A stretch of 26,916 nucleotides of DNA from the IMG/VR virus record IMGVR_UViG_3300017917_004706, positions 1-26,916 of that record; one strand, 5' to 3'. Shown piece after piece: positions 7,490 to 25,186 of this stretch (position 1 is the stretch's first letter; every line of letters starts with the position of its first letter). This DNA is from a virus. The notes beneath the pieces were generated by a model, which ran no database searches, was not told the DNA's origin, and saw only the letters and a list, made by a program, of their open reading frames with translations. The translations under genes and the position numbers were made by a program.

Positions 7490-7614
7490 TTCTACCACCT
7501 TTATACAATCTTGTTCTTATTGTTTCAATCTGTTCATCACTAAGAAGCGGGAGAATTTGACGGGCCTTTTCTTTGCTATATCCATAGTATTCCCTAATAA
7601 CTTCTAACGCTTCA
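7479..7614 (-). pseudogene. Orphaned 3' end of a clamp-loader small subunit (gp62) gene
   Basis: In frame on the minus strand this encodes EALEVIREYYGYSKEKARQ followed by ILPLLSDEQIETIRTRLYKG, a near copy of the C terminus of the intact gp62 at 8276-8719. No plausible in-frame start with a ribosome binding site lies just upstream; further upstream the frame is antisense to the endonuclease. It still overlaps the regA start, as an ancestral gp62-regA junction would. I read it as the displaced original gene end left by the homing-endonuclease insertion. Confidence 0.78.
7557..7614. repeat. 58-bp direct repeat, copy A (gp62 tail remnant)
   Basis: It matches 8354-8411 with two mismatches in 58 bases, including a final 45-base identical stretch. 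It encodes the conserved EYYGYSKEKARQ part of gp62 in the orphaned tail. Confidence 0.9.
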
Positions 7615-7620
7615 TACTTA

Positions 7621-7628
7621 TATTTATA
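7621..7628 (-). promoter_or_regulatory. Possible late promoter motif toward regA
   Basis: An exact minus-strand TATAAATA lies seven bases upstream of the gp62 remnant. It could restore transcription of regA downstream of the inserted endonuclease. Such an 8-mer can arise by chance in AT-rich DNA. Confidence 0.35.
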
Positions 7629-7640
7629 ATAGATGAATTT

Positions 7641-7648
7641 TATAAATA
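7641..7648 (+). promoter_or_regulatory. T4-type late promoter motif for the homing endonuclease
   Basis: An exact TATAAATA lies upstream of the plus-strand HNH gene. It would give a leader of about 75 bases containing two stem-loops. T4 intron endonuclease genes are known to use late promoters of this sequence. Confidence 0.55.
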
Positions 7649-7656
7649 ATGGGTAA

Positions 7657-7699
7657 GGGTAAAAGTTGCCGCTTTTACCCAATCTCGGAGAGTACGAGA
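7657..7699 (+). promoter_or_regulatory. Structured 5' leader of the endonuclease mRNA
   Basis: A perfect 9-bp stem GGGTAAAAG/CTTTTACCC (7657-7665 with 7672-7680) has a 6-base loop. A 5-bp stem TCTCG/CGAGA (7683-7687 with 7695-7699) follows. Both precede the GGAG ribosome binding site at 7719-7722. They may control translation or mRNA stability. Confidence 0.5.
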
Positions 7700-7728
7700 C
7701 TGTCCCCAAACTATTTATGGAGAGTTTA

Positions 7729-8301
7729 ATGTTTGAACAAAACAAATATTCTAAATGGTATTTCAACATAATAAAAAAAGCACAAGATAGAAATTGGAAT
7801 AAAAACAATTTTATTTACCTCGAAAATCATCATATTATTCCAAGAAGTTTGAATGGAAGTAATGATAAAAACAATCTAGTATATTTAACTGCTAAAGAGC
7901 ATTATATCTGTCACATTTTACTAGTAAAATGTGTTTATAAAGAATACCAATCTAAAATGATTTTTGCCTTTATGTCTATGAGTAATAGAAAAAATTTAAG
8001 CATGTTAAGATATAAAGGAAATTCTAGAATTTATAGTGAAATTAAAAATAAATGGGTAGAACATCTTAAGAAACAGCCTGGTCCAAATAAAGGCAAACAA
8101 TTTACTGATGATACTAAAATGAAAATGTCTTTGGCTAAAAAGAATATACTATTGTCTTTACAACATAAAAAATCTCTTTCAGAAGCTCAAAAAAATAGGT
8201 ATAAAAATAAAGCAAAGGGTTACTGTTGCTTAAAATGTAACAAAACATTTACGGGATATAACTTTAATAAGCATTTTAATATATGTTATATCCGCCCTTA
8301 G
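7729..8301 (+). CDS. HNH homing endonuclease with NUMOD3-like module and C-terminal zinc finger
   Basis: This is a 190-aa protein from the ATG at 7729 (GGAG seven bases upstream). The N-terminal HNH nuclease has YLENHHIIPRSLNGSNDKNN followed by LVYLTAKEHYICHILL, giving the paired His, Asn and downstream His of the active site. A NUMOD3-like DNA-binding stretch (NKGKQFTDDTKMKMSLAKKN) follows. The end has CCLKCNKTFTGYNFNKHFNIC, a likely CxxC-H-C zinc finger. It runs opposite to all surrounding genes and lies between gp62 and regA, flanked by a gp62 repeat. Its 3' end overlaps the gp62 3' end by 26 bases. It probably cleaves a gp62 target in uninvaded phages. Confidence 0.9.
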   Translation: MFEQNKYSKWYFNIIKKAQDRNWNKNNFIYLENHHIIPRSLNGSNDKNNLVYLTAKEHYICHILLVKCVYKEYQSKMIFAFMSMSNRKNLSMLRYKGNSRIYSEIKNKWVEHLKKQPGPNKGKQFTDDTKMKMSLAKKNILLSLQHKKSLSEAQKNRYKNKAKGYCCLKCNKTFTGYNFNKHFNICYIRP

Positions 8302-8719
8302 ATAATCTATTCTTTATTATCTCTATCTGTTGTTCAGATAAAATATTCAATACTTGACGGGCTTTCTCTTTGCTATATCCATAGTATTCCCTAATAACTT
8401 CTAACGCTTCAATCTTTTCTGGTTTTAGCCATTTATTGAATCTTTTCTTAGGCCGCACTATATTCTTTAAGAACGAAAATTGAAGGGCTTTTTCCAAGTG
8501 TGGTCTTGAATTCATCTCATTCGCGGGAATAATAGTATCCTGACCATATGATAAGCCCTTGTTTACTATATATGGATTATACTGTTTCTCTGACCAGTCA
8601 TCAACAATAAGTTTATCTTTTGTTTGATGGATAGCATTTATAAAATCAAAAGGCGATATAGCTGGTGCTTTCCAAGGTTCTTCTTTGAAAGATTTTACTG
8701 GTTCGCCAAATAGATTCAT
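8276..8719 (-). CDS. 62: Clamp-loader small subunit (gp62)
   Basis: This is a 147-aa protein. The N-terminal part FDFINAIHQTKDKLIVDDWS and the middle LEKALQFSFLKNIVRPKKRF are typical of T4-like gp62, which is poorly conserved and usually longer (187 aa in T4). Position between gp44 and regA is the second line of evidence. With four gp44 subunits it forms the loader that places gp45 on DNA. The ATG shares four bases with the stop of the metallopeptidase gene and has GGAG upstream. The last 45 residues are duplicated in the orphaned tail at 7479-7614, so this C terminus may derive from the endonuclease-associated copy. Confidence 0.85.
   Translation of the reverse strand: MNLFGEPVKSFKEEPWKAPAISPFDFINAIHQTKDKLIVDDWSEKQYNPYIVNKGLSYGQDTIIPANEMNSRPHLEKALQFSFLKNIVRPKKRFNKWLKPEKIEALEVIREYYGYSKEKARQVLNILSEQQIEIIKNRLSKGGYNIY
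8354..8411. repeat. 58-bp direct repeat, copy B (inside intact gp62)
   Basis: Partner of 7557-7614 (56 of 58 bases identical). The segment between the copies (7615-8353) holds the endonuclease, its promoter and the end of intact gp62. Confidence 0.9.
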
Positions 8720-11861: not shown

Positions 11862-12565
11862 GGATAAACTCCATTATAAAGTTGTTTCATTTTTTCGTTA
11901 CCATTAATAAAAAATTGCGCTTGAACTGAATCAGCTCTATTACCAACTCTATAATTAACAGTATACTTACCTGACACATTACATCTTATATTATTATCTT
12001 TTAGTGCAGAAGTCAATGCTCTATCCACCTCGGGTTGATCTTCTGGATGTCTTGCTCTTTTATACCATAACGGAGATAATTGTAATGCCAATATTCTAGG
12101 CAAAAAGAAACAATTCACATCAACAAAGTAATCACCTAAAACAGATTGCCAATTACCTAAGTTTTCACAATCATCATTACATATAAATTTACCAGAACTA
12201 TCTACGATTCTTCTTAAAGAACATGAAAAAGAATTTTTGTCTGATACTTCTAATAAACTTTCTACATGATTTTCTTCTAACCAATTATCCTCATCTAAGA
12301 ACATTATGTAATCGCCCTTAGCTAAATAAGTACATCCACCATATATTCTATGTCCGTTGTATTGTTCTGTACCTGTAGCATACGGTAAAACAATTACATC
12401 TTGATTAGTAATAAAACGATCAGCTTTACTCTTATGATGTTTACCATCTATGACAACTAAGTGTTGAATATTCTTATATGTTTGATTCTTTACAGATTGA
12501 AGATTTTGTTTTAGTAATTGTGACCCAGTAGTTGCTGTAATAATTGTGACAATGGGATTATTCAT
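11849..12565 (-). CDS. Family 2 (GT-A) glycosyltransferase
   Basis: This is a 238-aa protein. PIVTIITATTGSQLLKQNLQ, SVKNQTYKNIQHLVVIDG and YIMFLDEDNWLEENHVES are the classic GT2 blocks; the DED at about 94-96 replaces DxD. The C-terminal part (ARHPEDQPEVDRALTSAL) is likely the acceptor-side helix. It transfers a sugar from a nucleotide donor. It is the last glycan gene before the replication block and shares one base with the stop of the E1-like gene (TAATG). Confidence 0.9.
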   Translation of the reverse strand: MNNPIVTIITATTGSQLLKQNLQSVKNQTYKNIQHLVVIDGKHHKSKADRFITNQDVIVLPYATGTEQYNGHRIYGGCTYLAKGDYIMFLDEDNWLEENHVESLLEVSDKNSFSCSLRRIVDSSGKFICNDDCENLGNWQSVLGDYFVDVNCFFLPRILALQLSPLWYKRARHPEDQPEVDRALTSALKDNNIRCNVSGKYTVNYRVGNRADSVQAQFFINGNEKMKQLYNGVYPWQK

Positions 12566-13764
12566 TAATGATATTTCTTATGTTCGACAATCATTACTGG
12601 ACCATTATGATTTTTAGCAAATCTATAGGCAGATAAAACTTCACTTGGTGTATGAACATCTATAACTGGAAAATCTACCATATGTCTGAATACTTCTGTA
12701 AAGTTTTGTGAATGAGTCGGACCAGAATAAAAAAGTCCACCATCATCTATTACTGTTTTAAATATTACAGGCGCTTTGAATTCGCCATGGGAAATTCTTT
12801 CAACTTTATCTACATGATTACCTATGGCATCCGCAGCAACAAGCATAAAATCATGTCTTTCAAAATAAACAACAGGTTTAAATCCCTCAAAAGACATACC
12901 CATTGCTAATCCTACCATTAAATTTTCTGCAACAGGTGTTTCTATTTTTTGTGACATTGGCACATTTTTCAATGTACCCATAGCATCGCCGGGTATAATA
13001 CTATATCCAAGAAAAATTGATCCCTGTTCTCCAAGTTCTGTCATTGCTAAAGTTACAGCATCTTTATAACTTAAAGAAGTGTCTATATTCGTAGGTGTGT
13101 AATTTACTTTATCTAGTAATGGAAAATATTCAGTGTCAGTTTTCTTTGTTTTCTTCATCATATTTAGATCAGCAAAATTGCCTGTTCTAATGTGTGGTCT
13201 AGTTTTATTATAATGGTACCGATATACACAACTAGGCCAAATTAAATCTTTATCTGTCCCCCATCTTGACAATTTAGAAGCCTCAACTGCCATTCTGTCG
13301 TCTTCGATAACAAATGTACATGGTAAATTAAACCCATCAACATATCTTACAGCTTCGGCGAAATGTCCTGTGTCTTCTATACCATCTCCAACAAAACACC
13401 AAACGCGCTGATTTGAACCTTTATTTTTGAGTGCCCATGCAATACCTACAGCAATACCAGGTGTTCCTCCAATAATAGCAGACACATAGAAATTTCTTTT
13501 ACGATCAAACATAAACATACTTCTACCTGACAAAATTTTATTTTCTATTTCATTTTCAGGCAACTCTTTAAGTAATGCATGATACCAATTTCGATGAGTA
13601 GATAGGACATAATCACCCTCATTTACCTTTTGAAAAATTTCTATCAACTGTTCCTCATTACCACCAGGCAAGTGAACCGCAAAGGGCAATAATCCCGAAT
13701 CATGGTAGTTAGCCATCTTATTTACAAATGTTTTCAATTCTTCTGCTGTTTTTAAGTTCTTCAT
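12565..13764 (-). CDS. Fused E1-alpha/E1-beta-like thiamine-diphosphate enzyme
   Basis: This is a 399-aa protein. Residues 1-195 resemble 2-oxoacid dehydrogenase E1-alpha: DYVLSTHRNWYHALLKELP, GGTPGIAVGIAWAL, and GDGIEDTGHFAEAVRY as the start of the ThDP-binding GDG motif, with EDDRMAVEA at the usual Asn-containing end. Residues about 230-399 resemble E1-beta (SYKDAVTLAMTELGEQG, ETPVAENLMVGLAMGMSFEG, RHDFMLVAADAIGNH). The E1-beta C-terminal transketolase-type domain is absent. ThDP enzymes of this kind decarboxylate 2-oxoacids or transfer two-carbon units. No E2 gene is seen, so a carboligase or transferase role in sugar building is more likely than an oxidative complex. Confidence 0.85.
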   Translation of the reverse strand: MKNLKTAEELKTFVNKMANYHDSGLLPFAVHLPGGNEEQLIEIFQKVNEGDYVLSTHRNWYHALLKELPENEIENKILSGRSMFMFDRKRNFYVSAIIGGTPGIAVGIAWALKNKGSNQRVWCFVGDGIEDTGHFAEAVRYVDGFNLPCTFVIEDDRMAVEASKLSRWGTDKDLIWPSCVYRYHYNKTRPHIRTGNFADLNMMKKTKKTDTEYFPLLDKVNYTPTNIDTSLSYKDAVTLAMTELGEQGSIFLGYSIIPGDAMGTLKNVPMSQKIETPVAENLMVGLAMGMSFEGFKPVVYFERHDFMLVAADAIGNHVDKVERISHGEFKAPVIFKTVIDDGGLFYSGPTHSQNFTEVFRHMVDFPVIDVHTPSEVLSAYRFAKNHNGPVMIVEHKKYH

Positions 13765-14774
13765 TGTTTTCCCTCAAAGTTTATCACTATTCTACCCGAT
13801 GAACCCTTCCTCATCTTTTCAAATCCGAGATTAATATCGTCTAAAGATATTATATCTGTTACAAGTTTTTCAGCTAATTTATAATTATCACTTACATAAT
13901 CTACGATTGTGGATAAATCAGTATCAGGATCAAAATCGCCTCCATCTGAACTATAAATTTTTTTGCCATCAAAAAATGCTAAAGGATTGTCTAAAATTAA
14001 TTTCTGACCTATTCTGGGTTGCCCTACTAATATAACGGATCCGTTTTTAGAAAGTAGATTGAATAATTTTGAAATCACGTCTACCTTGCCCGTCGTATCT
14101 ATGGCATAATTTACCTTGTCTAAATTATCTAAATCACTAGTAATTATAAAATTGGCATCAAATTTTTTGGCTAATTTTTCTTTTGTGTTATCTAAATCTA
14201 CTAAAGTTGTAGAAAAATTACCAAATACTTTCAACCAAAATGCAATAGCTAAGCCTAAACCGCCTGCACCAGTAATCACGATTCGTGTATTTTTATCTAA
14301 ATTTTTAACTATGCCATACGATGTAGATAATGCACAACCAATTAGGGGAAATAAATTTTTTAGTTTATTATTTTTTTGTACTTTGGTTATTCTATTCTCT
14401 GATACAATAGTTTGTTCTGCGAAAGTAGTTACCGGGCCCGAACCCACGGTTCCCAACAATGAAGAATATCTTCCCCCAAAACAATCACATCCGAGACCCT
14501 TTCTCCAATGTAATACAACATAATCGCCGCATTGTACTTTAGTAACTCCCTCGCCTATATTTACTACATACCCATATCCTTCATGCCCCATAAAATGTGG
14601 CATATATTTATCCTCACCTTTTACAGCATCAATTTCATTGATCTGTGCGCCACACAACCCAGAGGTAATCATTTTAACTAAAACTTGCCCAGGACCAGGT
14701 AACTGTTCATCAAATGTTTCTATGCTTAAAGGATTAAAATGTTTTCTAAGAACTGCTGCTTTGAATGTTTTCAT
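13761..14774 (-). CDS. Zinc-type medium-chain alcohol dehydrogenase
   Basis: This is a 337-aa protein. The catalytic-domain motifs are GLCGAQINEID (catalytic-zinc Cys), GHEGYGYVV (GHE), and IGCALSTSYG, the usual second Cys. The NAD(P) Rossmann site is IVITGAGGLGLAIA (about 166-179), followed by an acidic residue (LVDLDN) suggesting NAD preference. The structural-zinc lobe (GLGCDCFGG) has fewer Cys than usual. It oxidises or reduces a hydroxyl or keto group of an unknown sugar-type substrate. It overlaps both neighbours by four bases, which ties it to the E1-like and kinase genes. Confidence 0.9.
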   Translation of the reverse strand: MKTFKAAVLRKHFNPLSIETFDEQLPGPGQVLVKMITSGLCGAQINEIDAVKGEDKYMPHFMGHEGYGYVVNIGEGVTKVQCGDYVVLHWRKGLGCDCFGGRYSSLLGTVGSGPVTTFAEQTIVSENRITKVQKNNKLKNLFPLIGCALSTSYGIVKNLDKNTRIVITGAGGLGLAIAFWLKVFGNFSTTLVDLDNTKEKLAKKFDANFIITSDLDNLDKVNYAIDTTGKVDVISKLFNLLSKNGSVILVGQPRIGQKLILDNPLAFFDGKKIYSSDGGDFDPDTDLSTIVDYVSDNYKLAEKLVTDIISLDDINLGFEKMRKGSSGRIVINFEGKQ

Positions 14775-15694
14775 AAATCTTCTATTTTTGCTCTGTATTT
14801 AACACCAAGTGAAACTAATTTTGAAGCAACTTTATTAGCGGCTAAAACAGCATTATAGGTTTCGATTTTTCTAGAAATACAATATCCTATAGTTGCTAAT
14901 ACAGAATCTCCTGCTCCACTGAGTTCTATTGTTTGAACTTTGTTTCCATTAATATGTTTAATTTTTCTTTCCTTATCATATAGAAAAATACCATTCTCGC
15001 CATCTGTGATTACTATACTTTGTATATTAAAAATTGAACTTATTTTTTTGCAAGCGTCCTCTACGGAAAGATCCGGGGCATATCTTAATTGTATTTTAGT
15101 AAATTCATACTTATTAGGTTTGATAATACTGACATTACTAAACATACTTAAATCATCTCGTTTTGTATCAACCAAAATGGGTTTCTCATTTTTATTTGCT
15201 ATACTTATAATATTAGATGTTAAGTAATTATCAAAGATACCCTTTTTATAATCAATTAAAATAATAGTATCATATTTTTGTATATTACTTTTTACATAAT
15301 CAATAATTTTTTCTGCAGAAAAAGTATTGATTGTATGTAATGACTCATTATCATATCGCAATAAATGGCTATTTTTATAATTAGAAATTAATCTAGTTTT
15401 TAAAGATGTTTTTCTGTTAATTTCGTAAACAAAATGTGATTCACAATTTTCAGAAAAATTATCTTCAAAATCTTTAGTTATACCCAAGTAATCATCACCG
15501 ACGACTGTAACAAAAGTACAATTATCTCCTAATGAACAAAGATGCGCGACCACATTATAAGCTCCACCATAAGAATCTAATTTTTTAGTTACATCTAAAA
15601 CCAAAGTAGGTGCTTCAGCAGAAACTCTTAATGTATCGCCATAGATAAATCTATCTAATATAAAATCTCCTATAACTAGATGTTTCTTATTCAT
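14771..15694 (-). CDS. PfkB-family kinase, HldE/RfaE kinase-like
   Basis: The protein is about 307 aa from the ATG at 15694. It starts HLVIGDFILDRFIYGDTLRV then SAEAPTLVLDV and LDSYGGAYNVVAHLCSLG, closely like the N-terminal heptose-7-phosphate kinase domain of HldE. ELSGAGDSVLATIGYC carries GAGDS with the catalytic Asp and anion hole. The nucleotidyltransferase domain found in bifunctional HldE is absent. It probably phosphorylates a sugar or sugar phosphate; a heptose substrate is suggested only by similarity. It forms a trio with the dehydrogenase and E1-like genes. Confidence 0.87.
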   Translation of the reverse strand: MNKKHLVIGDFILDRFIYGDTLRVSAEAPTLVLDVTKKLDSYGGAYNVVAHLCSLGDNCTFVTVVGDDYLGITKDFEDNFSENCESHFVYEINRKTSLKTRLISNYKNSHLLRYDNESLHTINTFSAEKIIDYVKSNIQKYDTIILIDYKKGIFDNYLTSNIISIANKNEKPILVDTKRDDLSMFSNVSIIKPNKYEFTKIQLRYAPDLSVEDACKKISSIFNIQSIVITDGENGIFLYDKERKIKHINGNKVQTIELSGAGDSVLATIGYCISRKIETYNAVLAANKVASKLVSLGVKYRAKIEDL

Positions 15695-16424
15695 AATCAA
15701 CTTTTATCCAATTATGTTGTTTATCTACGGTATCGAAATCTTTTCTACAGTTATGAAAAAATAATTTTACATCATTATTGTATTTTTTAATATGATCTGC
15801 TAAATGAAAAAATGCTGTGCCTACTGTATGTATTTCTTTTGCATTTTTAACGATATCAAACCAATCAAATATTCCTGTCCCTTTATCAGTAATAAAGGTT
15901 TTAATAATAGGAAGATTACATTCTATTTTAAGATCATATGTACCCCATGAATTTGTATCTACAACTATTATATAATCTTTTTTATCTGAGATCAATTCTT
16001 TGTATAATTCTTTAGATTGCTGAGTAGATTTTAATTTTGGAAATAATTTCCAGCATTGACTATATTCTATACCTATTTGTTCATAAAATTGCACATAATG
16101 AAAAGGTTGTTTTACTGCACCAAATCCTATTATAAAATGATCTAAGTTGTAATTATTAATTATATTATATACATCTTGTTGTTCCGCAGCATAATTTTCA
16201 TTATTTACTTCAAAAACTATTGCGCGATTTTCATCATTGTATAGATGTAACATACTCTCTAAATATCTAGATTTAACAGGTAGATATACTTTACCCGAAG
16301 TCGTATTAAGTACAGTTTTATTAATAGCAAAATTAGCAAGGATATCTCCCAAACCAAGATGAGTATAAACTAAAACATCTTGGGTTGGATCTATGTCATT
16401 AATATTGTTGAGAAGTCTAGGCAT
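15687..16424 (-). CDS. Glycosyltransferase-like protein, paralog of the protein at 24401
   Basis: This is a 245-aa protein. VLVYTHLGLGDILANFAINK has the GLGD loop typical of nucleotide-sugar-binding GT-B-like proteins. Near the end are FDWFDIVKNAKEIHTVGTAF, FHLADHI and a final FFHNCRKDF. The pattern FD--D-IK-AKEIHTVG, then FH-L-D, then FHN is shared with the protein at 24401-25186. I infer a glycosyltransferase of a poorly described family. It overlaps the kinase gene by eight bases (by 14 to an in-frame TTG). Confidence 0.6.
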   Translation of the reverse strand: MPRLLNNINDIDPTQDVLVYTHLGLGDILANFAINKTVLNTTSGKVYLPVKSRYLESMLHLYNDENRAIVFEVNNENYAAEQQDVYNIINNYNLDHFIIGFGAVKQPFHYVQFYEQIGIEYSQCWKLFPKLKSTQQSKELYKELISDKKDYIIVVDTNSWGTYDLKIECNLPIIKTFITDKGTGIFDWFDIVKNAKEIHTVGTAFFHLADHIKKYNNDVKLFFHNCRKDFDTVDKQHNWIKVDYE

Positions 16425-17061
16425 CTATTTTTCCATCATAAACAGGTTCATCATTTTCAGTATAAGTTTGCCCAATGAAATTTTTACCACTAAAATCATA
16501 TGTATCTCGCATCCAATCTAATTCTTTTACTCCATATATTAAAGTTTTATCTTGTATAGAAGGCCACAACACGTCACGTAAAAAAATCTGATCAACAGTA
16601 TATTGTTTTATAAATCTATATTGTTTCATAATTTCTTTAAAACTGTTATCTATTATTATATTCTTTTTTCCCCACATACCCGCTAAAATAGGAAATTCGT
16701 AATGATTGTGATGATCCCTAATTACCATATAATTGGCTTCAGTATTTAACCAATGATCTATTAGAATTTTTTCTCTTTCACTTAATCGTGAATCAGTGTC
16801 TCTAGATAATACTATATTTTTGTTATCAAACATAATATCAAACCGCCAAAATGCTCCGAAAGAATTATCTAATATTTTTATTGTGGTGGTGTTTTGAAAA
16901 TGATTTAGAATGTTAATAAATTCTTTGGGCACCGTAATATCATAATAAAAAATACATTGCCAATCAGGAAATATTGTTTGTGCTAGTTGAGCATTCCTTA
17001 CAGCACCAAATAAATATTTAGGATTATTTCCCCACAAACTAAACGTAAAAATTTTTACCAT
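16417..17061 (-). CDS. GT-A glycosyltransferase-like protein
   Basis: This is a 214-aa protein. VKIFTFSLWGNNPKYLFGAV, FPDWQCIFYYDITVP, FGAFWRFDIMFD and LSRDTDSRLSEREK show a GT-A-like domain with the DTD metal motif at about 87-89. Then come IRDHHNHYEFPILAGMWG and a VDQIFLRDVLWP helix. From memory, proteins with SRDTDSRLSxRE are frequent in polysaccharide clusters. Donor unknown. It overlaps neighbours at both ends by seven or eight bases. Confidence 0.75.
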   Translation of the reverse strand: MVKIFTFSLWGNNPKYLFGAVRNAQLAQTIFPDWQCIFYYDITVPKEFINILNHFQNTTTIKILDNSFGAFWRFDIMFDNKNIVLSRDTDSRLSEREKILIDHWLNTEANYMVIRDHHNHYEFPILAGMWGKKNIIIDNSFKEIMKQYRFIKQYTVDQIFLRDVLWPSIQDKTLIYGVKELDWMRDTYDFSGKNFIGQTYTENDEPVYDGKIDA

Positions 17062-18008
17062 ATAAACTTATTTCTATACCATTCTACAATTAATTTAAGT
17101 TCATCAGTGAAGATTGCCTTTGGTTGCCAATCAAGAGATTTTAATTTCCTATCATCAATAGCATAACGAACATCCTGCCCGGGTCTAACTTCTGAAAAAT
17201 CAAAGTTATTAGTTGATATGTAGGATAAATTTATATAAAAATGCGACAAAATAGCTTGTGCCACATCTATATTTTGTTTTTCTGTGTTCCCTGATATATT
17301 AAATATCTCATTAGTGATATTTTTATCTATTATTTTTATAATAGCATCAGCAGTATCTGACACATGTAGCCAAGTTCTTTTCGGCAATCCTTGGTCGTGC
17401 ATTACTATTTTTTTGCCTAGAGACAAATTCTTTATAGCCTTAGGAATAAACTTTTCAACATACTGACCGATACCATAGTTATTAGTTGGTCGAACAATAA
17501 CATAAGGTATATCATATGTTCTAGCCCATGCTAAGACTAACATATCTGCTGCTGCCTTTGTGGCAGAATATGGATTACTAGGTTTTAGCAAATCTGTTTC
17601 AGTATGGAATCCCTGTTCTATATCACCATATACTTCATCTGTACTAAAATGTAATAATATAGGACGTCTTGATTTCGGTTTAGATTTAATTAATTCTAAT
17701 AATCTATGTACCCCATTAACATTACTTTTTAGAAAGACGTCAGAACTTTCTATACTATTATCTACATGCGTTTCTGCGGCAGTATTGATAATATAATCAC
17801 AATCATATAAACGAGTTAAATCATTGATATCAAATATTTCAAATTTAAATTGGTCGCCATACTTTCTTAGATTTTGTAAAAGATCCCAATTAGCAGCATA
17901 TGTGCATTTATCAATACCATAAACGTACCAACCCTTGTCCAAGCATGCTTTAGTTACATGGTATCCTATAAATCCTAAGCAACCTGTCACATAAACAATT
18001 TTTTTCAT
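17055..18008 (-). CDS. Nucleotide-sugar 4,6-dehydratase (RmlB-like extended SDR)
   Basis: This is a 317-aa protein. The NAD motif is GCLGFIG (9-15). AAETHVDNSIESSDVF is followed by LLHFSTDEVYGDI (catalytic Thr-Asp-Glu in STDEVYG), NPYSATKAAADML (YxxxK pair), and RPTNNYGIGQYVEKFIP. These are RmlB dehydratase signatures, removing water to give a 4-keto-6-deoxysugar nucleotide. The RfbG-type TSDKCY motif of CDP-glucose dehydratases is absent, so the nucleotide is more likely dTDP, but this is not proven. It could supply the 4-keto intermediate to the RfbH-like enzyme. Confidence 0.92.
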   Translation of the reverse strand: MKKIVYVTGCLGFIGYHVTKACLDKGWYVYGIDKCTYAANWDLLQNLRKYGDQFKFEIFDINDLTRLYDCDYIINTAAETHVDNSIESSDVFLKSNVNGVHRLLELIKSKPKSRRPILLHFSTDEVYGDIEQGFHTETDLLKPSNPYSATKAAADMLVLAWARTYDIPYVIVRPTNNYGIGQYVEKFIPKAIKNLSLGKKIVMHDQGLPKRTWLHVSDTADAIIKIIDKNITNEIFNISGNTEKQNIDVAQAILSHFYINLSYISTNNFDFSEVRPGQDVRYAIDDRKLKSLDWQPKAIFTDELKLIVEWYRNKFIW

Positions 18009-18805
18009 TTATAGGTTCTCAATCCAAATTCTAATCCTTTTAGATCTAAATTTAACAAATCTAGATTATCAGAATTGCCAGTATAATTTTTATCAGTGTC
18101 CACAACCGTATAATTAGTTTTCCATCCGTGAATAGATGACATTAGATCAAGTTGTTTACTTAATGTGAGTTTTTCTTTATAAACACAGTTTATATCTTTT
18201 ACCATATGATTATAACTAACAAAGTGATCAACTATAGTACAAAAATCCTCAACGAAAAAATTATCAAAATACTTATTTCGTAATTCTAGTGTAGTATTAG
18301 AAATCATTGAATTTTTATACTTACTAAAAATTCTAAAATTAGGTTCACCTTTACCAAAACAACCAAACAATCTAAGTGTGTAGAAATGATCAATACTCTC
18401 GCATATTCTAGCTATGATGTTTTTTGACATAGCATAAGAGCTATTTGTAGGACAATCTTTCCATACCCAATCTTCTTTCACATAATTGGAATCTACTATT
18501 TCCGACCCCGATGCTATATTTATAAACTTTTTAAAATACTTAGATGATCTTAGAATATTTGTAAAAAGTTCTAGATTATTAGCAGCATAAAGTAATTTAT
18601 CACTATGAAGATTTTCTTTACCGCCAAAACTAATACAGTTTATTACTACATCTGGCGTTTGTTCTTTAATATAAGTATATAGAACATCTTTCTTTAATAC
18701 GTCGACTTGCCTATTTACATTTAGAACATGATGTCGAGTCGATACTAGATAATTAGTTAGATATGATCCTATAAATCCTGACCCACCAAGTATCACAATT
18801 TTCAT
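18005..18805 (-). CDS. NAD-dependent sugar epimerase/reductase (extended SDR)
   Basis: This is a 266-aa protein. GGSGFIGSYL is the nucleotide-binding motif, followed by PDVVINCISFGG and a YxxxK in SSYAMSKNIIARI. It is shorter than typical epimerases and looks like a 4-ketosugar reductase or epimerase (RmlD or fucose-synthase type). In yersiniose-like pathways an SDR reductase (YerF) finishes the branched sugar, and this gene adjoins the ThDP enzyme as that model would need. The exact substrate is not readable. It overlaps both neighbours by four bases. Confidence 0.82.
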   Translation of the reverse strand: MKIVILGGSGFIGSYLTNYLVSTRHHVLNVNRQVDVLKKDVLYTYIKEQTPDVVINCISFGGKENLHSDKLLYAANNLELFTNILRSSKYFKKFINIASGSEIVDSNYVKEDWVWKDCPTNSSYAMSKNIIARICESIDHFYTLRLFGCFGKGEPNFRIFSKYKNSMISNTTLELRNKYFDNFFVEDFCTIVDHFVSYNHMVKDINCVYKEKLTLSKQLDLMSSIHGWKTNYTVVDTDKNYTGNSDNLDLLNLDLKGLEFGLRTYK

Positions 18806-19575
18806 ATACTAAGAGCTTTATTTCTTTCCAATTCATATTCTTGAGTAGACAAAAAGGGATACATGTCATCAAGTCCAGGTTGTACTTTTTTGCCTTCTAT
18901 AGTTTTAAACATTTGTGTGGGTATTATTTCTTGATCCTCTTGACATACTACCTTAACCAACTTAGGCAAAGGTTGTTTGAGACAATAACTTAAATCGGCT
19001 TCAATAGCCGATTTCTTATTTAGCACAAAATACTTTAGACCATAAAGATCTGCTGTCTTATACAGATCAGCAAAATATAGCCCAGATTCTTTACTTACAC
19101 CATAAACTCTGTTTTCAAAAAATTTCTTCTGTGTGTTTTTAATACTTAAATAACCATTGTTGTCTAATACGAAAATAGTAATAGGAAGATTGTAATACTT
19201 TATAACTGCTAATTCTTGTAGATTAGAATTAAAACTTCCGTCACCGGTAACGACAATTATTTGTTTATTAGGATTAGCCATTGCCACTCCTATAGAACCT
19301 GGAACTGAAAATCCCATATCCGCTTGGGCAGATGAAAAAATAAAACGTTGATTGTTCTTACATTTTAAATTTTGAGGCAATGCATAAGAAGGAGAACCAG
19401 CATCAGTTACAACTATATGACTATCTGTCATAACATTACTTAGTGCCTCTATAAAGGTATAGATGTTTAAAGAATACTCATTGTCCAAATAGTCATTAGT
19501 AAACACTGGCCATTTGTTCTTCCATTCTTGGCATAGACTTGCCCAATCATTATTCTTTTCTGATTTTATATTCAT
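18802..19575 (-). CDS. C-terminal half of a split ThDP enzyme (acetolactate-synthase-like PP domain)
   Basis: About 257 aa. The ThDP/Mg motif is GDGSFNSNLQELAVIKYYNL ending in FVLDNNGYLSI. Before it are IVVTDAGSPSYALP and SSAQADMGFSVPGSIGVAMA, as in IlvB-type enzymes. The ATG at 19575 follows AAGGA eight bases upstream, so it can be translated separately. It overlaps the N-terminal half (19550-20596). Removing one T from the T7 run (minus strand of 19577-19583) would fuse the frames into one protein of about 597 aa, the usual family length. Probable partner of the RfbH-like dehydrase. Confidence 0.85.
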   Translation of the reverse strand: MNIKSEKNNDWASLCQEWKNKWPVFTNDYLDNEYSLNIYTFIEALSNVMTDSHIVVTDAGSPSYALPQNLKCKNNQRFIFSSAQADMGFSVPGSIGVAMANPNKQIIVVTGDGSFNSNLQELAVIKYYNLPITIFVLDNNGYLSIKNTQKKFFENRVYGVSKESGLYFADLYKTADLYGLKYFVLNKKSAIEADLSYCLKQPLPKLVKVVCQEDQEIIPTQMFKTIEGKKVQPGLDDMYPFLSTQEYELERNKALSI

Positions 19576-20596
19576 CAAAAAAATCCTTTAAATTCAAACA
19601 ATACGTTCTATCAATATTCACAGGTCCCTTCAGTTTAAATAATTCATTTGCATCGATGTCTACCATTATTTTAAATGAATAAGGAGAAAATTGCGATTCA
19701 TCATATCCCATATGTGTCGCATTAAGTGAACATCCAAGTATTAGTAACAAATCACAATAATGTAGAGCAAAATTAGCTGCTCTAGTTCCTTTTATACCTA
19801 TAGCACCAAGATTTAATCTATGTTCATATTCCATTATATCCCTTCCAAGATAAGAAGATACAAATGGTGTATTATGATACTCAACAAAATCTTTGAATAT
19901 TTCTCTAGAATCACTTAAATGTATACCATTGCCTGCTAGTATAATTGGTCGATTACTTTTTTCTAGCATTTCTGAAAAAGTTTTATATGCTATAGTCAAA
20001 ATATTATTTGGATTACTAGGAACATAATTACCGGAAATAAAGCTATCGCTTTCTATTGGCATTTCTGCAGTTTGAATATCACTTGGGATATCTAACCATA
20101 CTGGCCCAGGCCTTCCAGTAGTGGCTATGTATAATGCTTCTTCTAATATTCTTTTTACGTCCTCGACTTTTTCAATTACCTTAGCAAATTTAGTAATACT
20201 TTTTACACTATTAGTAATATCATGTTCTTGAACACCATACTTTCTAATACTTACTCCTTTAGTTTTGTTTATATAATTACTAGTATGATTTAATCTAACA
20301 TTACCAGATAAAAATAAAACAGGAATAGAATCTTGCCAACTATTAAGTAAAGGAGTCATGCAGTTAGTACCACCGCAACCTGTCGTTGGATTGACAACAG
20401 ATAATTTATTCGTGGATTTAGCTTCAGCATAACCAGCATATCCTGCACCCTGTTCATGATGAAAACAAATATACTTTATTTTACCATGTTTAATAAAGCC
20501 ATCGTTAAGACCTGATGCTCCCCCTCCCATCAAACCGTATACATTCTTTACACCATAATCATAAAGATAGGAAGCTATGTAATCGCATACTCTCAT
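19550..20596 (-). CDS. N-terminal half of a split ThDP enzyme (acetolactate-synthase-like; YerE-like)
   Basis: This is a 348-aa protein carrying the N-terminal pyrimidine domain and the middle domain. YGVKNVYGLMGGGASGLND, then CFHHEQGAGYAGYAEAKS with the catalytic Glu, TTGCGGTNCMTPLLNSWQDS and IPVLFLSGNV are IlvB-type. The WQDSIPxLFxSGxV block resembles versions in polysaccharide clusters. GRPGPVWLDIPSDIQ and the middle domain (RPIILAGNGI, DLLLILGCSLN) complete it. It probably works with the C-terminal half at 18802. In Yersinia, YerE is a ThDP enzyme of this superfamily that adds a two-carbon branch to a 3,6-dideoxy-4-ketosugar. The gene is next to an RfbH-like enzyme, as needed. Confidence 0.87.
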   Translation of the reverse strand: MRVCDYIASYLYDYGVKNVYGLMGGGASGLNDGFIKHGKIKYICFHHEQGAGYAGYAEAKSTNKLSVVNPTTGCGGTNCMTPLLNSWQDSIPVLFLSGNVRLNHTSNYINKTKGVSIRKYGVQEHDITNSVKSITKFAKVIEKVEDVKRILEEALYIATTGRPGPVWLDIPSDIQTAEMPIESDSFISGNYVPSNPNNILTIAYKTFSEMLEKSNRPIILAGNGIHLSDSREIFKDFVEYHNTPFVSSYLGRDIMEYEHRLNLGAIGIKGTRAANFALHYCDLLLILGCSLNATHMGYDESQFSPYSFKIMVDIDANELFKLKGPVNIDRTYCLNLKDFFDEYKIRKE

Positions 20597-21912
20597 GTGA
20601 ATAAACTCATAAAGTTATCTAAAGTGTAACCAATATATTCTATTTGTTCAGGAATAATCACAGGACTTGTACCATGAAAATAAGTATCCGTCATAACTTT
20701 AGTAGCTGTAGGAAAATTCTTTCTTGCATCTTCTTGATTCATCAAATGACTATATGCTGGTTGTAGTAAAATATTACCAGCAAAGTATGGTCTAGTCTGT
20801 ATTAAATTTTCTTCAAAATAATCAACTACATCATTTCTCTTAAATGGAGAACCTGATCTGATAGTAATAGGAAATGCAAACCAACTAGGATTACTATGTT
20901 CTTGTGCCCTCGGCAAATGAAAATATTCCTCGTATTTACTATATATGTCAAATAATAATTTGTAATTACGTTTTCTAATAGAATGAATTTCGTCCAATTT
21001 AGAAAGTTGAACTAAACCCATAGCACCTTGTATTTCTATAGGTTTTAAATTATAACCTATCTCATCATACACATACTTGTGATCAAATATTTCGTTAGGT
21101 AAACTAGGAATCCACTCACTAAATCTTTTACCACAAGTCCCGCATTTTAATTTATTAGCTTCGGGCCCCACACAGTAACATCCTCTACCCCATTCTCTAA
21201 ATGATCTGAGAATTACCTCTTGATCATATGTATTACAGGCAACATATCCTCCCTCCCCCATTGTTATATGATGAGCAGGATAGAAAGAGCAAGTAGCCAT
21301 AATACCAAATGAGCCCAAAGGCGCACCATCGTAAGTTGATCCGAGGGCATCACAACAATCCTCTAGTAATAGTAAATCATATCTTTTAACAAGCTCCATC
21401 AACCAACGCATATTAGGCGGATTGCCTAATACATGAGCGAAAGTCATTACTTTTATATTATGTTTTCTTATTAGATCCTCAGCCTTGGTTAAATCAAGAT
21501 TAAGAGTATCTAATTCTATATCTAAAAATACAGGTTCAAATCCTAACTGAATGATTGGATTGAATGTGGTTGGGAATCCTGCAACTGGAACTAATACCTT
21601 AGTTCCTTTAGGAAGATTGTAACCTCTTTTTGAGGTCAGAGAAGTCATCATCAATAAATTTGAACTGGAACCAGAATTAGTTAATATACCGTTGGGTTTT
21701 CCAAAGTGTTTAGGAAATTCACGTTCAAATTTCAAACACTTATCACCCATTACCAACCAACCATCGAGTAATGAATCCATTACTGATTCGTATTCTTTTT
21801 CATTAAAATATGGACCGGCGTAGTTAACAAAATCCTTGCCCGCTTCCCATTTTTTGTTCGCTTGTTTCTGTTTAAAAAACTCAGAAACACTTTTTATAAT
21901 ATCTTGTTTCAT
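20593..21912 (-). CDS. RfbH/E1-like PLP 3-dehydrase (CDP-6-deoxyhexulose-3-dehydrase family)
   Basis: The protein is about 439 aa from the ATG at 21912, one base after the upstream stop. It belongs to the DegT/DnrJ aminotransferase fold but has CSFYPAHHITMGEGG, where His (H214) replaces the PLP Lys. This is the hallmark of RfbH/AscC-type dehydrases that remove the C3 hydroxyl. Cys 187, 245 and 247 reproduce the C-X57-C-X-C spacing of the E1 [2Fe-2S] ligands; the fourth Cys is at 257 (nine residues later rather than the seven I recall), with another at 260. The length matches the family. The reductase partner (E3) is not seen here, so a host enzyme or another electron donor would be needed. 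Confidence 0.92.
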   Translation of the reverse strand: MKQDIIKSVSEFFKQKQANKKWEAGKDFVNYAGPYFNEKEYESVMDSLLDGWLVMGDKCLKFEREFPKHFGKPNGILTNSGSSSNLLMMTSLTSKRGYNLPKGTKVLVPVAGFPTTFNPIIQLGFEPVFLDIELDTLNLDLTKAEDLIRKHNIKVMTFAHVLGNPPNMRWLMELVKRYDLLLLEDCCDALGSTYDGAPLGSFGIMATCSFYPAHHITMGEGGYVACNTYDQEVILRSFREWGRGCYCVGPEANKLKCGTCGKRFSEWIPSLPNEIFDHKYVYDEIGYNLKPIEIQGAMGLVQLSKLDEIHSIRKRNYKLLFDIYSKYEEYFHLPRAQEHSNPSWFAFPITIRSGSPFKRNDVVDYFEENLIQTRPYFAGNILLQPAYSHLMNQEDARKNFPTATKVMTDTYFHGTSPVIIPEQIEYIGYTLDNFMSLFT

Positions 21913-21913
21913 A

Positions 21914-22822
21914 TTACCAATAAGCAAAATTTGTTTCAAGTTGCATATATTGTTTTCTTTTTTGTGCTTCATCTATTTGTAAAGGATATATCCAATGTTC
22001 ATTATACATTTTATGCCAATTTTTATACCCTTCAACTTTAGTCCATCTATAACCTAATATACCAAAAAACAGTTGTATGGTTCCTCCAGTTTGAATACCA
22101 ATTTTACCTAAATTTTTTGCATGCTCAGCATAAAAGGGAGAAGATGTTGTAGCACCAGTTAATAAAACATCAAAATCATATTTAGTAATTTGTTCTTTAA
22201 TGTAATTTACAGTGTCTTCCCAAGATTGGCAACCGGGATATTGCCTATCATCGAAATAAGGATGGTAAGGGGATCTTATACAATCCACCAACTCGAAAGG
22301 CACAACTAATTCTTTATTACTTCCCCATATCTTATCAATACGATCCCATTGATGTAGTATAGATTCTCTGTGTGTAGAAACAACTAGTACTTTTTTATTC
22401 TTTAAATACTTTGTCCACGGATCAGTGCAATCATAATAACCAGAAACATTTACTAATGCTGCTGGGTCGTTTACTAACATAGGTGGGCCAGAATAAATTG
22501 GAATGTTTTTAAAATTAGACAAAAATTTTATGTTTTTATATAACGTATTGGCTACATCCACAAACCCAAGCAAATCCGCTCTTTTCATTACTTCTATTGT
22601 ATTAGGATACAATCTATTAAAAGCATAATTTAAAGTTGTAGGCACGACTCCTGCTTCTACTAATGATCTTTCATTAAAAAAATTTATATCAGGATATTCG
22701 CCTTTAAGTAAACATTCTATTACATACCCTGCAGTGTTATCTATTCTTAAAGCACAAAATGGATCGCCTTTTAAAATTTTTTCTTTTAAGAAATTATTTG
22801 TAGCATGAAAATCTAAAACCAT
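21914..22822 (-). CDS. Unrecognised glycan-cluster protein, possibly GT-D-like
   Basis: This is a 302-aa protein. The N terminus FCALRIDNTAGYVIECLLKG, then NTIEVMKRADLLGFVD, KKVLVVSTHRESILHQWDRI, VVPFELVDCIRSPYHPYF and LGKIGIQTGGTIQLFFGILG give a pattern I associate with poorly described proteins in polysaccharide clusters, perhaps GT-D-fold glycosyltransferases. No decisive catalytic motif is seen. It shares one base with the upstream gene and lies one base before the RfbH-like start. Confidence 0.55.
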   Translation of the reverse strand: MVLDFHATNNFLKEKILKGDPFCALRIDNTAGYVIECLLKGEYPDINFFNERSLVEAGVVPTTLNYAFNRLYPNTIEVMKRADLLGFVDVANTLYKNIKFLSNFKNIPIYSGPPMLVNDPAALVNVSGYYDCTDPWTKYLKNKKVLVVSTHRESILHQWDRIDKIWGSNKELVVPFELVDCIRSPYHPYFDDRQYPGCQSWEDTVNYIKEQITKYDFDVLLTGATTSSPFYAEHAKNLGKIGIQTGGTIQLFFGILGYRWTKVEGYKNWHKMYNEHWIYPLQIDEAQKRKQYMQLETNFAYW

Positions 22823-23532
22823 TATTTATCCATATAATATTTAGCTAAATTGCTTCTTTCGCCTTTAATGTAGTAAAAGGCTTCTTGTATATCTTTAGGT
22901 AAAGATTGAAAAAGATTACCCATTTCTTTTTCAGCTAATTCTTTATTATAGTTTGTTCCAATAGGATGTTGAACAGTGTGTGAATAATCCCTTAGTACTG
23001 GTCTCTTTAGCATATGTGATAACGCAGGATATACTATATCAAAACTCCACCCCATCTTATATGGCGTGAAATTTACATTTCTTTTATTTGCTTCCTCTAA
23101 AATATCTTTATGAATAAACCAACAAGTACAATCAGTATTAGCTACCATTTTTAAAGGAGTTTCATCTACAGTAAACATATCTAAGTCTGTTCTGCTAGCA
23201 TCATACCATGTATAATCTACATTCGGAGCATAAATCCCCCATTTATATTCATCATAGTATTTCTTGGCGTCTGCTATTAATCCTTCCCAATTATTATATG
23301 ATGCATCTCCTTGAATATGGAACAACACATCACCATCGAATAACTCTAACGCCTTTAAAAACTGAGCAGTGAAATAAGATTCCTCACCTATATTAATCCA
23401 TCCGTCGTTGTGATTATCATCATCACTATTAATTATAGTTGGAGTAATGCCTATAGAATTAAGCTGTTGAATTTTTTCAAGTGTATTAGAATACTGTCCG
23501 CGCCAATTAAAAATAAAGGTATGTATTTTCAT
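22822..23532 (-). CDS. GT-A-like glycosyltransferase
   Basis: This is a 236-aa protein. HTFIFNWRGQYSNTLEKIQQ, ITPTIINSDDDNHNDGWINI, and DVLFHIQGDASYNNWEGLI with QGDAS at the position of the metal motif suggest a GT-A-like fold. CTCWFIHKDILEEANKR and MGWSFDIVYPALSHML are acceptor-side features. Donor and acceptor are unknown. It is placed between the GT10-like gene and the unrecognised glycan gene, with overlaps at both ends. Confidence 0.7.
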   Translation of the reverse strand: MKIHTFIFNWRGQYSNTLEKIQQLNSIGITPTIINSDDDNHNDGWINIGEESYFTAQFLKALELFDGDVLFHIQGDASYNNWEGLIADAKKYYDEYKWGIYAPNVDYTWYDASRTDLDMFTVDETPLKMVANTDCTCWFIHKDILEEANKRNVNFTPYKMGWSFDIVYPALSHMLKRPVLRDYSHTVQHPIGTNYNKELAEKEMGNLFQSLPKDIQEAFYYIKGERSNLAKYYMDK

Positions 23533-24401
23533 CTTTGTAATATCTTGTTATATACCACAGCATCAAACCAATTAAGAAAATTATCTAGTATCAGATATGA
23601 AGGCGGAATGTTGTTTATGAATTTTGGTGCTGCCAATATTTTATCGTATAGATTACTATCACTATCCACCTTAATAATGTAATCTATCGCATCTTCAAAT
23701 GTCGAAAAGTCATGGACATTAATAAATGAGTCTCTATTAAAGTCAGATGCTATAAGTTCATTGCCCCAGTAAATAGGTATAGTGCCAGCATAAAAAGCAT
23801 GCATAATTTTTTCAGTGACATAACCAGGATATGTATACGGTTCAAAGCAAACGTTGAATTTACGAGTACTAAGAAAATCTATTTTCCCCTGTTCACCGTG
23901 GATATTAGCTTGTATATTATTATACAACTTACCCCCGCTGTCAATAGTATTATACTTATTAAGTAGCTCAAAAAAGTTATTTCTTTCTTTACAATTAGGA
24001 TTGGATACTACAAAAGAGGCAAAAGATGTTTTTTCTTGTATATTAATTTTACCTAAAACATAGTCCATATCGTATTTCATACCATGTAGATGTTTCCATG
24101 CCCACATATAGATTACGAATAACGGCAATCTATAATGCCATGATTCGTAATTATGATCAAATGAAATAGCGTAATGGCAATCATAGTTTTCCGGTCTTTG
24201 ATTTTCGCCTGTATAAAATATTTTGGTTACTTTATTCTTATTGAATTTTAGATTTTGATTTCCAAAATTGTTATCTCCAAATATTAGATATTCAGGATTT
24301 TCATTATCTATTTCTATTTCATATCTTGTTGATAAAATAGAATGGAAAAACATAGCTAGATGATTGTGGGTATCTGTAAACCCAAGCTTAATTTTTTTCA
24401 T
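23529..24401 (-). CDS. GT10 alpha-1,3-fucosyltransferase-like enzyme
   Basis: About 290 aa from the ATG at 24401 (overlapping the previous stop). The family pattern is clear: FYTGENQRPENYDCHYAISF, YRLPLFV, SFASFVVSNPNCKERNNFF, then FNVCFEPYTYPGYVTEKIMH followed by AFYAGTIPIYWG, the signature CFExYxxxGYxTEKI of GT10. Family members transfer fucose from GDP-fucose. No GDP-fucose synthesis gene is certain here, so the donor may come from the host or be another sugar. Cytoplasmic, no signal peptide. Confidence 0.92.
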   Translation of the reverse strand: MKKIKLGFTDTHNHLAMFFHSILSTRYEIEIDNENPEYLIFGDNNFGNQNLKFNKNKVTKIFYTGENQRPENYDCHYAISFDHNYESWHYRLPLFVIYMWAWKHLHGMKYDMDYVLGKINIQEKTSFASFVVSNPNCKERNNFFELLNKYNTIDSGGKLYNNIQANIHGEQGKIDFLSTRKFNVCFEPYTYPGYVTEKIMHAFYAGTIPIYWGNELIASDFNRDSFINVHDFSTFEDAIDYIIKVDSDSNLYDKILAAPKFINNIPPSYLILDNFLNWFDAVVYNKILQR

Positions 24402-25186
24402 CAAAATTTCCTATCATAGTTTAGTTGAGACCATCTATGATTATTCCAAAAACAATTAATTTGCGTCTCATGCTTCATCATGATATTATGGAATACTAAT
24501 CTTGCATCTGTCTTGTCAGTAATACTATCCACTAAATTGTGAAAGAAACTTCCTACAGTATGTATTTCCTTCGCCTCTTTAATTAGATCAACGAAATCAA
24601 AAATATTATTAGTAATACCAGGTTTAATTTCTACTATAGGCAATCCAACATAAGGAGATTCAGCATCCATATCAATCTGATATCCTGTAGATGATTGACT
24701 ACTAGTATTATGGACCAATCTAAAATCCTTACCATTAGTTAAATCTTTTAAGATCTTTTTAGATTTTTTTGTGCTCTCAGGTATAACACATCTAGTATAT
24801 CTGATAGAAAAATGCATGCCTGCTAGTTCATAGAACTGTCTATCAAAATTTATTGCGGTATGTACAGCAGTTAGTCCTCCATTCTTATCTAGAACTAATC
24901 TTCTCGGATAGTATAAATGTGGATCTGCTACAACAATTAATTCTGAATTGGTATCTCTAGCTAAGTCTGCAATTTTATCTCTTTGGTAAAGATTAATATC
25001 TTTATCCTCAAACTCTACGGTTTCAATTTTATCGAAACCTTTATATAGAGCTCTTACTGATTCACCAAACATCTTTAAATGGATCACATACACTTTATCA
25101 TATCTATCAGAAAAAGCATGCACCATTCCATTAGTTATCAAATGATCGCCAAGACCGGTGTGAGTATGAAGAACTAAACTATTCAT
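24401..25186 (-). CDS. Glycosyltransferase-like protein, paralog of the protein at 15687
   Basis: About 261 aa from the ATG at 25186, which overlaps the FkbM stop by ATGA. It starts MNSLVLHTHTGLGDHLITNG with the GLGD loop, and ends with NIFDFVDLIKEAKEIHTVGS, FFHNLVDSI and LVFHNIMMKHE. The shared FD--D-IK-AKEIHTVG and FHN elements mark it as a paralog of 15687-16424. A GT-B-like nucleotide-sugar fold is inferred. A charged middle segment differs between the two copies. Confidence 0.6.
   Translation of the reverse strand: MNSLVLHTHTGLGDHLITNGMVHAFSDRYDKVYVIHLKMFGESVRALYKGFDKIETVEFEDKDINLYQRDKIADLARDTNSELIVVADPHLYYPRRLVLDKNGGLTAVHTAINFDRQFYELAGMHFSIRYTRCVIPESTKKSKKILKDLTNGKDFRLVHNTSSQSSTGYQIDMDAESPYVGLPIVEIKPGITNNIFDFVDLIKEAKEIHTVGSFFHNLVDSITDKTDARLVFHNIMMKHETQINCFWNNHRWSQLNYDRKF

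Follow-up and report, generated by a model that had tools for sequence, protein, structure and literature searches.

A viral gene cassette with a predicted two-chain YerE-like carboligase and a probable pathway to a branched dideoxysugar

Introduction

The closest described counterpart of the system considered here is the yersiniose A pathway of Yersinia pseudotuberculosis, which comprises E1 (DdhC), E3, the carboligase YerE and YerF. YerE-like enzymes depend on thiamin diphosphate (ThDP) and take as donors 2-oxo acids of varied length, pyruvate in the case of YerE and 4-hydroxy-2-oxo acids in that of ErwE (PMC12247030), and JanthE from Janthinobacterium is a characterized member (PMC12188165). 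A relative of E1, SpnQ, acts on thymidine diphosphate (dTDP) sugars with ferredoxin or flavodoxin reductases replacing E3 (PMC8987622). Here we analyze a five-gene cassette in a 26,916-base virus record from IMG/VR (IMGVR_UViG_3300017917_004706, whose whole length we call the window) that quite likely encodes a phage pathway to a nucleoside diphosphate (NDP)-activated 3,6-dideoxy-4-C-branched hexose of the yersiniose kind.

We found no phage branched-sugar pathway and no virus making C-branched sugars in the literature searched, and a 2025 review of ketone-accepting ThDP enzymes does not mention phages. An earlier note on this DNA had read the locus as a yersiniose-like branched-dideoxysugar pathway, and our analysis supports that reading: the ThDP enzyme did not group with acetolactate synthases (ALS) and the RfbH-like protein was not an aminotransferase.

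Results

A coupled set of overlapping genes

The cassette lies on the minus strand and consists, from 5' to 3', of E1/RfbH, the N- and C-terminal chains of a ThDP enzyme (chains N and C), a short-chain dehydrogenase/reductase (SDR) and an RmlB-type dehydratase:

20593..21912, minus strand: predicted E1/RfbH-type NDP-4-keto-6-deoxyhexose 3-dehydrase (pyridoxamine phosphate (PMP), [2Fe-2S]), 439 residues; NF011936, 3bcx, His/Cys residues
19550..20596, minus strand: predicted YerE-like ThDP carboligase chain 1 (N), PYR and central domains, 348 residues, catalytic Glu48 in HHEQ; PF02776 and PF00205, 8rph (JanthE), 80+ virus loci, tree
18802..19575, minus strand: predicted YerE-like ThDP carboligase chain 2 (C), PP domain, GDG...NN motif, 257 residues; PF02775, 8rph, alignment, ribosome-binding site
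18005..18805, minus strand: candidate SDR-fold NDP-ketosugar reductase, 266 residues; PF01370, AlphaFold2 model with a predicted local distance difference test score (pLDDT) of 93.9
17055..18008, minus strand: RmlB-type NDP-glucose 4,6-dehydratase, TDEVYG motif, 317 residues; TIGR01181 295 bits, TIGR02622 74 bits

Successive genes overlap by 4, 26, 4 and 4 nt, so we regard the cassette as a single coupled unit. The four enzymes are therefore where the earlier note had placed them, in one operon-like arrangement of overlapping genes, but the ThDP enzyme that it described as fused is encoded by two open reading frames (ORFs), 19550–20596 for the PYR and central domains and 18802–19575 for the PP domain.

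Relatives of the viral ThDP enzyme are encoded on at least 119 virus-contig stretches: a first scan of virus contigs returned 14, scanning with an alignment raised this to 119, and we retained 80 of them. Counts of synteny and of the split refer to 81 viral loci, or 82 with the window.

The ThDP enzyme groups with YerE-like carboligases

Both ThDP halves find their best match among solved structures in JanthE (8rph), chain C with 124 bits against 73 for the next entry, and a fused viral homologue used as the query scored 253.6 bits with JanthE, 206.5 with 5ahk (presumably PpYerE, from a 2018 paper cited in the review) and 180 with the best ALS. A FastTree phylogeny (LG model) was built from 61 sequences; it did not include the authentic Yersinia YerE and ErwE, and its bacterial members came only from Bacillota, where they were recruited with the viral profile. 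In this tree a clade made up of the viral enzymes together with JanthE, 5ahk and RfbH-linked Bacillota enzymes is separated with support of 1.0 from IlvB, IlvI and the plant enzyme AtALS; the viral clade itself has support of 0.967. Neither chain N (191.8 bits) nor chain C (117 bits) reaches the TIGR00118 cut-off for ALS of 538, but split halves could not singly reach a cut-off set for the full-length protein, so more weight rests on the tree. In place of the Arg with which ALS binds its second substrate (AtALS R377), every viral member compared has Thr, Ser or Gly and JanthE has Pro; since the Arg is kept in 5ahk and some bacterial members, this change is supportive only. As judged by sequence, the viral ThDP enzymes belong with the YerE-like ketone-accepting carboligases and not with true ALS, the grouping that the earlier note had named as the danger to its reading.

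Of 398 Bacillota genomes, 14 yielded a YerE-like gene in a profile search (E <= 1e-62), and in most of the loci fetched with their flanks an E1 gene lies within ~7 kb. We therefore do not claim a virus-exclusive family, even though a pattern scan of 84,980 genomes had returned only two relatives. Plasmid matches of the fused viral enzyme were also set aside: the best are annotated ilvB, and the one that we opened (L122) has no flanking sugar genes and groups with IlvB.

The carboligase is split into two chains in most viral loci

The break falls in the linker between the central and PP domains, and chains N and C overlap by 26–29 nt in different frames. Chain C starts with ATG (an alternative TTG lies at 19578) and has a ribosome-binding site, AAAGGA, 8 nt upstream. 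The enzyme is split in 77 of the 82 virus loci, which thus lack the single-chain PYR-central-PP architecture of YerE-like lyases, and fused in five (L050, L064, L067, L068 and L070). Split junctions have a frame offset of -1 in 61 loci and +1 in 15, and a 4-nt overlap occurs in 54. In alignments of viral members E48 of chain N is invariant, as are G112, D113, G114 and N140 of chain C; the first Asn of the NN motif varies.

The window junction carries a run of seven T, and one T fewer would join the two frames. With two offsets among loci of which 77 of 82 are split, however, no single sequencing error or frameshift site can account for the arrangement, and we rejected sequencing error as its cause. 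Programmed frameshifting to a single fused protein is not favored either, as the offsets vary and chain C has its own ribosome-binding site. The fused viral form sits inside the split clade in the FastTree phylogeny, a pattern suggesting that a single early split was followed by re-fusion.

In ThDP enzymes of the decarboxylase family the cofactor is bound between the PYR and PP domains, so two separate chains would be able to work, and sulfopyruvate decarboxylase (ComDE) and the alpha/beta E1 of keto-acid dehydrogenases are two-chain precedents. By analogy the viral chains would be expected to assemble as PYR-PP dimers, and we claim that the pair would be a two-chain variant working like YerE.

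A YerE-like gene beside E1 in one Bacillota locus (L106, 5937–7657) has a break as well, a little further on, giving chains of 368 and 205 residues with a 4-nt overlap; this could be either an independent event or an assembly frameshift.

E1 retains the dehydrase His and cluster Cys residues

The E1 protein matches the NCBIfam RfbH model NF011936 with 440.8 bits, above the cut-off of 423, and among solved structures it is closest to Yersinia E1 (3bcx, E = 6.6e-101), ~49 orders of magnitude ahead of ColD (6e-52). Its ORF is open to 21972 (459 residues); we favor the ATG at 21912, the start implied by the earlier note, because homologues begin there and the overlap with the upstream gene disappears. 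In the 459-residue numbering, H234, C207, C265, C267 and C280 correspond to H220, C193, C251, C253 and C261 of Yersinia E1. The spacing is C-X57-C-X1-C followed by X12 before the fourth Cys, as compared to X7 in Yersinia E1, the loop ahead of that Cys being five residues longer in viral E1. All 70 viral copies compared keep the catalytic His and the four cluster Cys; Cys257 of Yersinia E1, which lies outside the four cluster Cys, is not conserved in them.

The earlier description of an RfbH/E1-type dehydrase with His replacing the PLP Lys and a C-X57-C-X-C pattern is thereby confirmed. With the dehydrase His and cluster Cys present and no aminotransferase Lys, viral E1 is by its sequence a PMP/[2Fe-2S] 3-dehydrase and not an aminotransferase. 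A ColD-type 3-dehydrase, which needs no reductase, was considered and rejected, as the match to E1 is far stronger and all cluster Cys are present.

E1 occurs in the same locus as the ThDP gene in 75 of the 81 viral loci, within 1.3 kb in 71, and four of the six loci lacking it have <0.9 kb of upstream sequence. In a marine virus (L125, 6188–9230) and a cyanophage (L124, 2076–9287), E1 lies close to RmlB-like and SDR-like genes but no ThDP enzyme accompanies it; these gene sets are perhaps an unbranched dideoxysugar version.

Nucleotide and electron source

Markers for E3, CDP-glucose dehydratase (CDP, cytidine diphosphate), RmlB-type enzymes and NTP_transferase were sought in 20 virus records. 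The TIGR01181 equivalog cut-off of 365 is not reached by the window (295 bits) or by any of these records (285–308 bits in 20 of 20), so we call the dehydratase RmlB-type and not a proven dTDP enzyme. Each of the 72 copies compared carries the TDEVYG motif. CDP-glucose 4,6-dehydratase (TIGR02622) exceeds its cut-off in 0 of the 20 records, and glucose-1-phosphate cytidylyltransferase (TIGR02623) is without a match in 6 of 6, while in bacterial relatives each exceeds its cut-off in 9 of 10 genomes, often on the contig of the ThDP gene. Because the CDP-glucose enzymes are missing and RmlB-type enzymes with TDEVYG are universal in these samples, the viral route is probably dTDP-based and changed from CDP; uridine diphosphate (UDP) is possible. 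Of the two sugar substrates that the earlier note had allowed, the dTDP sugar is thus favored over the CDP sugar.

The E3 domains PF00970 and PF00111 were found in 0 of the 20 records, several of them 130–222 kb long, though records may be fragments. An NTP_transferase domain occurs in three, and L012 has one further weak, HAD-fused match. This agrees with the earlier statement that E3 and a sugar nucleotidyltransferase are missing, the latter being encoded in few records. With no E3 and few nucleotidyltransferases, the phage would rely on host NDP-glucose and host reductant. In many relatives ~1.1 kb separates E1 from the ThDP gene; a hidden E3 in this slot was considered and rejected, as the gene there encodes a class-I aminotransferase.

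Neighboring genes could supply different donors

That aminotransferase (e.g., L024, 6845–8014) is one of several genes that vary between relatives. An LldD-like 2-hydroxy-acid dehydrogenase that uses flavin mononucleotide precedes the ThDP gene in L019 (2140–3276), a PanB homologue follows it in L009 (9759–10685), L010, L045, L047 and L048, and a split pair resembling E1-alpha/beta occupies the slot in L033 (5220–6385), L034 and L036. The aminotransferase, LldD-like and PanB chemistries make or elaborate 2-oxo acids, which makes these neighbors potential donor suppliers, and since such a gene is present in many relatives the branch may differ between phages. In a bacterial locus (L017) the ThDP relative stands beside ORFs which, named by eye, resemble acetaldehyde dehydrogenase and 4-hydroxy-2-oxovalerate aldolase, an independent association that speaks for decarboxylation of a 2-oxo acid by the ThDP pair. 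No donor-supply gene is present in the window, so pyruvate is our default guess there; the earlier proposal of pyruvate stands to that extent and does not necessarily extend to all relatives.

The SDR and a proposed reaction order

The nearest folds to the SDR model are GDP-L-fucose synthase and GDP-4-keto-6-deoxymannose reductase (GDP, guanosine diphosphate). The predicted fold fits an NDP-ketosugar reductase and does not tell reduction of the branch from reduction of the ring; we propose that the SDR would reduce the acyl branch, the role of YerF.

From family membership, motifs, the split, synteny and phylogeny we infer an order of reactions, a nucleotide, a donor, a product and a destination. 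The RmlB-type enzyme would act on dTDP-glucose (or possibly UDP-glucose) supplied by the host and give the 4-keto-6-deoxy sugar, from which E1, with PMP and its [2Fe-2S] cluster, would remove the C3 hydroxyl, drawing electrons from host ferredoxin or flavodoxin reductases because no E3 is encoded. The two-chain ThDP enzyme would then decarboxylate a 2-oxo acid and add the acyl anion to C4 of the ketosugar, giving a tertiary alcohol with an acyl branch, the SDR would presumably reduce the ketone of the branch, and glycosyltransferases of the surrounding island would transfer the sugar, which may go to a virion protein, to phage DNA or, via host machinery, to host lipopolysaccharide (LPS).

A sugar island in a T4-like phage

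Judged by its T4-type replication genes (clamp loader gp44 with lid domain, C-domain of the gp45 sliding clamp, clamp-loader A subunit gp62 and RegA), the window is a fragment of a T4-like phage. In its closest relative, L003, the clamp is 96% identical, and the T4 gp23 major capsid gene lies on the contigs of L003, L007, L012, L027 and L071. The sugar island sits between the clamp and an AAA gene, wholly on the minus strand, and includes the following in addition to the cassette:

21914..22822, minus strand: predicted GT-D (DUF1792-like) glycosyltransferase, conserved neighbor upstream of E1; AlphaFold2 pLDDT 89.1, without a Pfam match
23529..24404, minus strand: GT10 fucosyltransferase; PF00852 and PF18025
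11849..12565, minus strand: GT2 glycosyltransferase; PF00535
25183..25935, minus strand: FkbM-type methyltransferase; PF05050

Fold comparison of the GT-D candidate gave a Z score of 12.2 to 4pfx (DUF1792) and ~9.5 to TagA/TarA, the next unrelated fold scoring 4.3. Hydropathy showed no clear membrane helices in any of the tested island proteins from 11.8 to 25.9 kb, so no flippase or polymerase is apparent in the island. A promoter scan gave nothing above shuffled sequences, and no RNA elements were found except one tRNA.

Window positions 12565–15700 encode, in a row, a second ThDP gene of the alpha-keto-acid dehydrogenase (alpha-KADH) E1 type, with PP and PYR domains within a single 399-residue chain, a Zn alcohol dehydrogenase and an HldE-kinase-like PfkB protein; the trio is also present in L024, L026, L027 and L030. 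In other bacteria, enzymes of the alpha-KADH type likewise put branches on deoxysugars (PMC12247030), so the trio may by analogy be a second branching module. On a Methylovirgula plasmid (L123, 7983–11114) a cytidylyltransferase and a CDP-glucose dehydratase are followed by RfbH and then a two-gene transketolase-like pair, perhaps a different ThDP class used for branching.

Elsewhere in the window, an HNH endonuclease ORF (7666–8301, plus strand) lies inside the gp62 clamp-loader region (7479–8719), and the 3' end of gp62 appears duplicated beyond it at 7479–7808. A phage ORF at 1800–3086 contains an adenylate/guanylate cyclase catalytic domain (PF00211).

Discussion

Several observations weigh against a branched-sugar pathway in the window. 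Characterized E1 uses CDP sugars, so that acceptance of a dTDP sugar is assumed; the SDR can be called a ketosugar reductase only in general terms (its identity to GDP-fucose synthases is ~16%), and the L020, L051 and L056 groups lack it or have something else in its place; the placement of the viral clade relative to JanthE and 5ahk is weak (support 0.195–0.756); and no E1 was found within 8 kb upstream of the ThDP genes of L007 and L010. The last of these, together with the L125 and L124 loci in which E1 occurs without a ThDP enzyme and the resemblance of the SDR fold to 4-ketosugar reductases, could be explained if E1 and the SDR made an unbranched 3,6-dideoxy (or amino) sugar while the ThDP pair acylated another acceptor, such as an aldehyde or a different ketosugar. 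We consider this unlikely, since the tight, coupled adjacency of E1 and the ThDP genes in most loci and the similar pairing in bacteria fit one pathway, and removal of the 4-keto group by the SDR would cost the ThDP enzyme its acceptor.

It is more improbable still that the pair is an ALS or another carboligase of branched-chain amino-acid or central metabolism, placed incidentally by E1 and the RmlB-type gene. Automatic models label both halves acetolactate synthase-like, and genes of the ilvB type are counted among amino-acid genes in virus papers (PMC8226683, PMC5371798), but the halves score 192 and 117 bits, far under the ALS cut-off, their tree position is outside ALS with full support, the R377 change points the same way within the limit set by 5ahk, and E1 is linked in nearly all loci. 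It is scarcely credible that the two ORFs reflect a frameshift from sequencing or assembly, or a pseudogene in decay: the T run and the five fused relatives would suit such an origin, whereas the split recurs with both offsets in many metagenomes, chain C has its own ribosome-binding site, catalytic residues are kept in both halves and the fused form is nested within the split clade. A single pathway to a branched dideoxysugar, with a functional two-chain carboligase, thus remains the reading that we prefer.

A wider proposal is one that we hold tentatively, as possible though short of probable: that T4-like and related viruses have a YerE family of their own, in two chains, whose donor modules (aminotransferase, 2-hydroxy-acid oxidase, PanB, E1-alpha/beta-like pair) can be exchanged, so that phages put different carbon branches on a dTDP-based dideoxy sugar and thereby make a diversifying code on virion, DNA or host-surface glycans. 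If the branching pathway is real, virus genes annotated as ilvB or acetolactate synthase would have to be reconsidered as candidates for sugar branching. Acetolactate synthase genes are reported together with deoxysugar genes in algal prasinoviruses and in viral contigs associated with Chlorobium (PMC5371798, PMC8226683), and these synthase genes may, by analogy, be YerE-like and not amino-acid genes. Phages would then, like bacteria, be makers of rare branched sugars, which bears on superinfection exclusion and on decoration of virions or DNA, and viruses may produce their own unusual sugar coatings. Tertiary-alcohol chemistry would gain a new set of enzymes in a naturally two-chain YerE and its several partners for donor supply, and it would become possible to test E1 reactions that proceed without E3 and probably also without CDP.

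Among known systems, the LPS and sugar islands of T4-like cyanophages and pelagimyophages resemble the window in combining sugar-nucleotide enzymes and glycosyltransferases in a variable island (PMC3037559, PMC7029224), some with an RfbH homologue; they differ in that no YerE-like enzyme was recognized among the matches in 50,697 phage records. No close relative of chain N was found in those records (best <36% identity, mostly ilvB-like), an absence that is not proof of novelty. The RfbH and YerE-like clusters of Bacillota (L105, L107, L109 and others) likewise place E1 near a YerE-like enzyme, 32–39% identical to viral chain N, but nearly all are fused and linked to CDP-glucose 4,6-dehydratase and cytidylyltransferase. 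JanthE and 5ahk are the best solved sequence matches and fall in the same clade against ALS, yet they are single chains distant in sequence, and the ThDP motif of JanthE is CDG where the viral one is GDG. SpnQ of the spinosyn pathway offers the precedent of an E1 homologue that works on dTDP sugars with ferredoxin or flavodoxin reductases and not E3, although it leads to a 2,6-dideoxy sugar and has no tie to a branching enzyme. The yersiniose A pathway is closest in predicted chemistry, an E1-type 3-dehydrase standing by a YerE-like carboligase and an SDR in both; the phage set is virus-borne, has an RmlB-type enzyme in place of CDP-glucose 4,6-dehydratase and lacks E3 and the cytidylyltransferase. 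With neither the CDP route nor E3, and with its ThDP enzyme in two chains, the cassette is by sequence not a plain member of that pathway but a system predicted to work like it.

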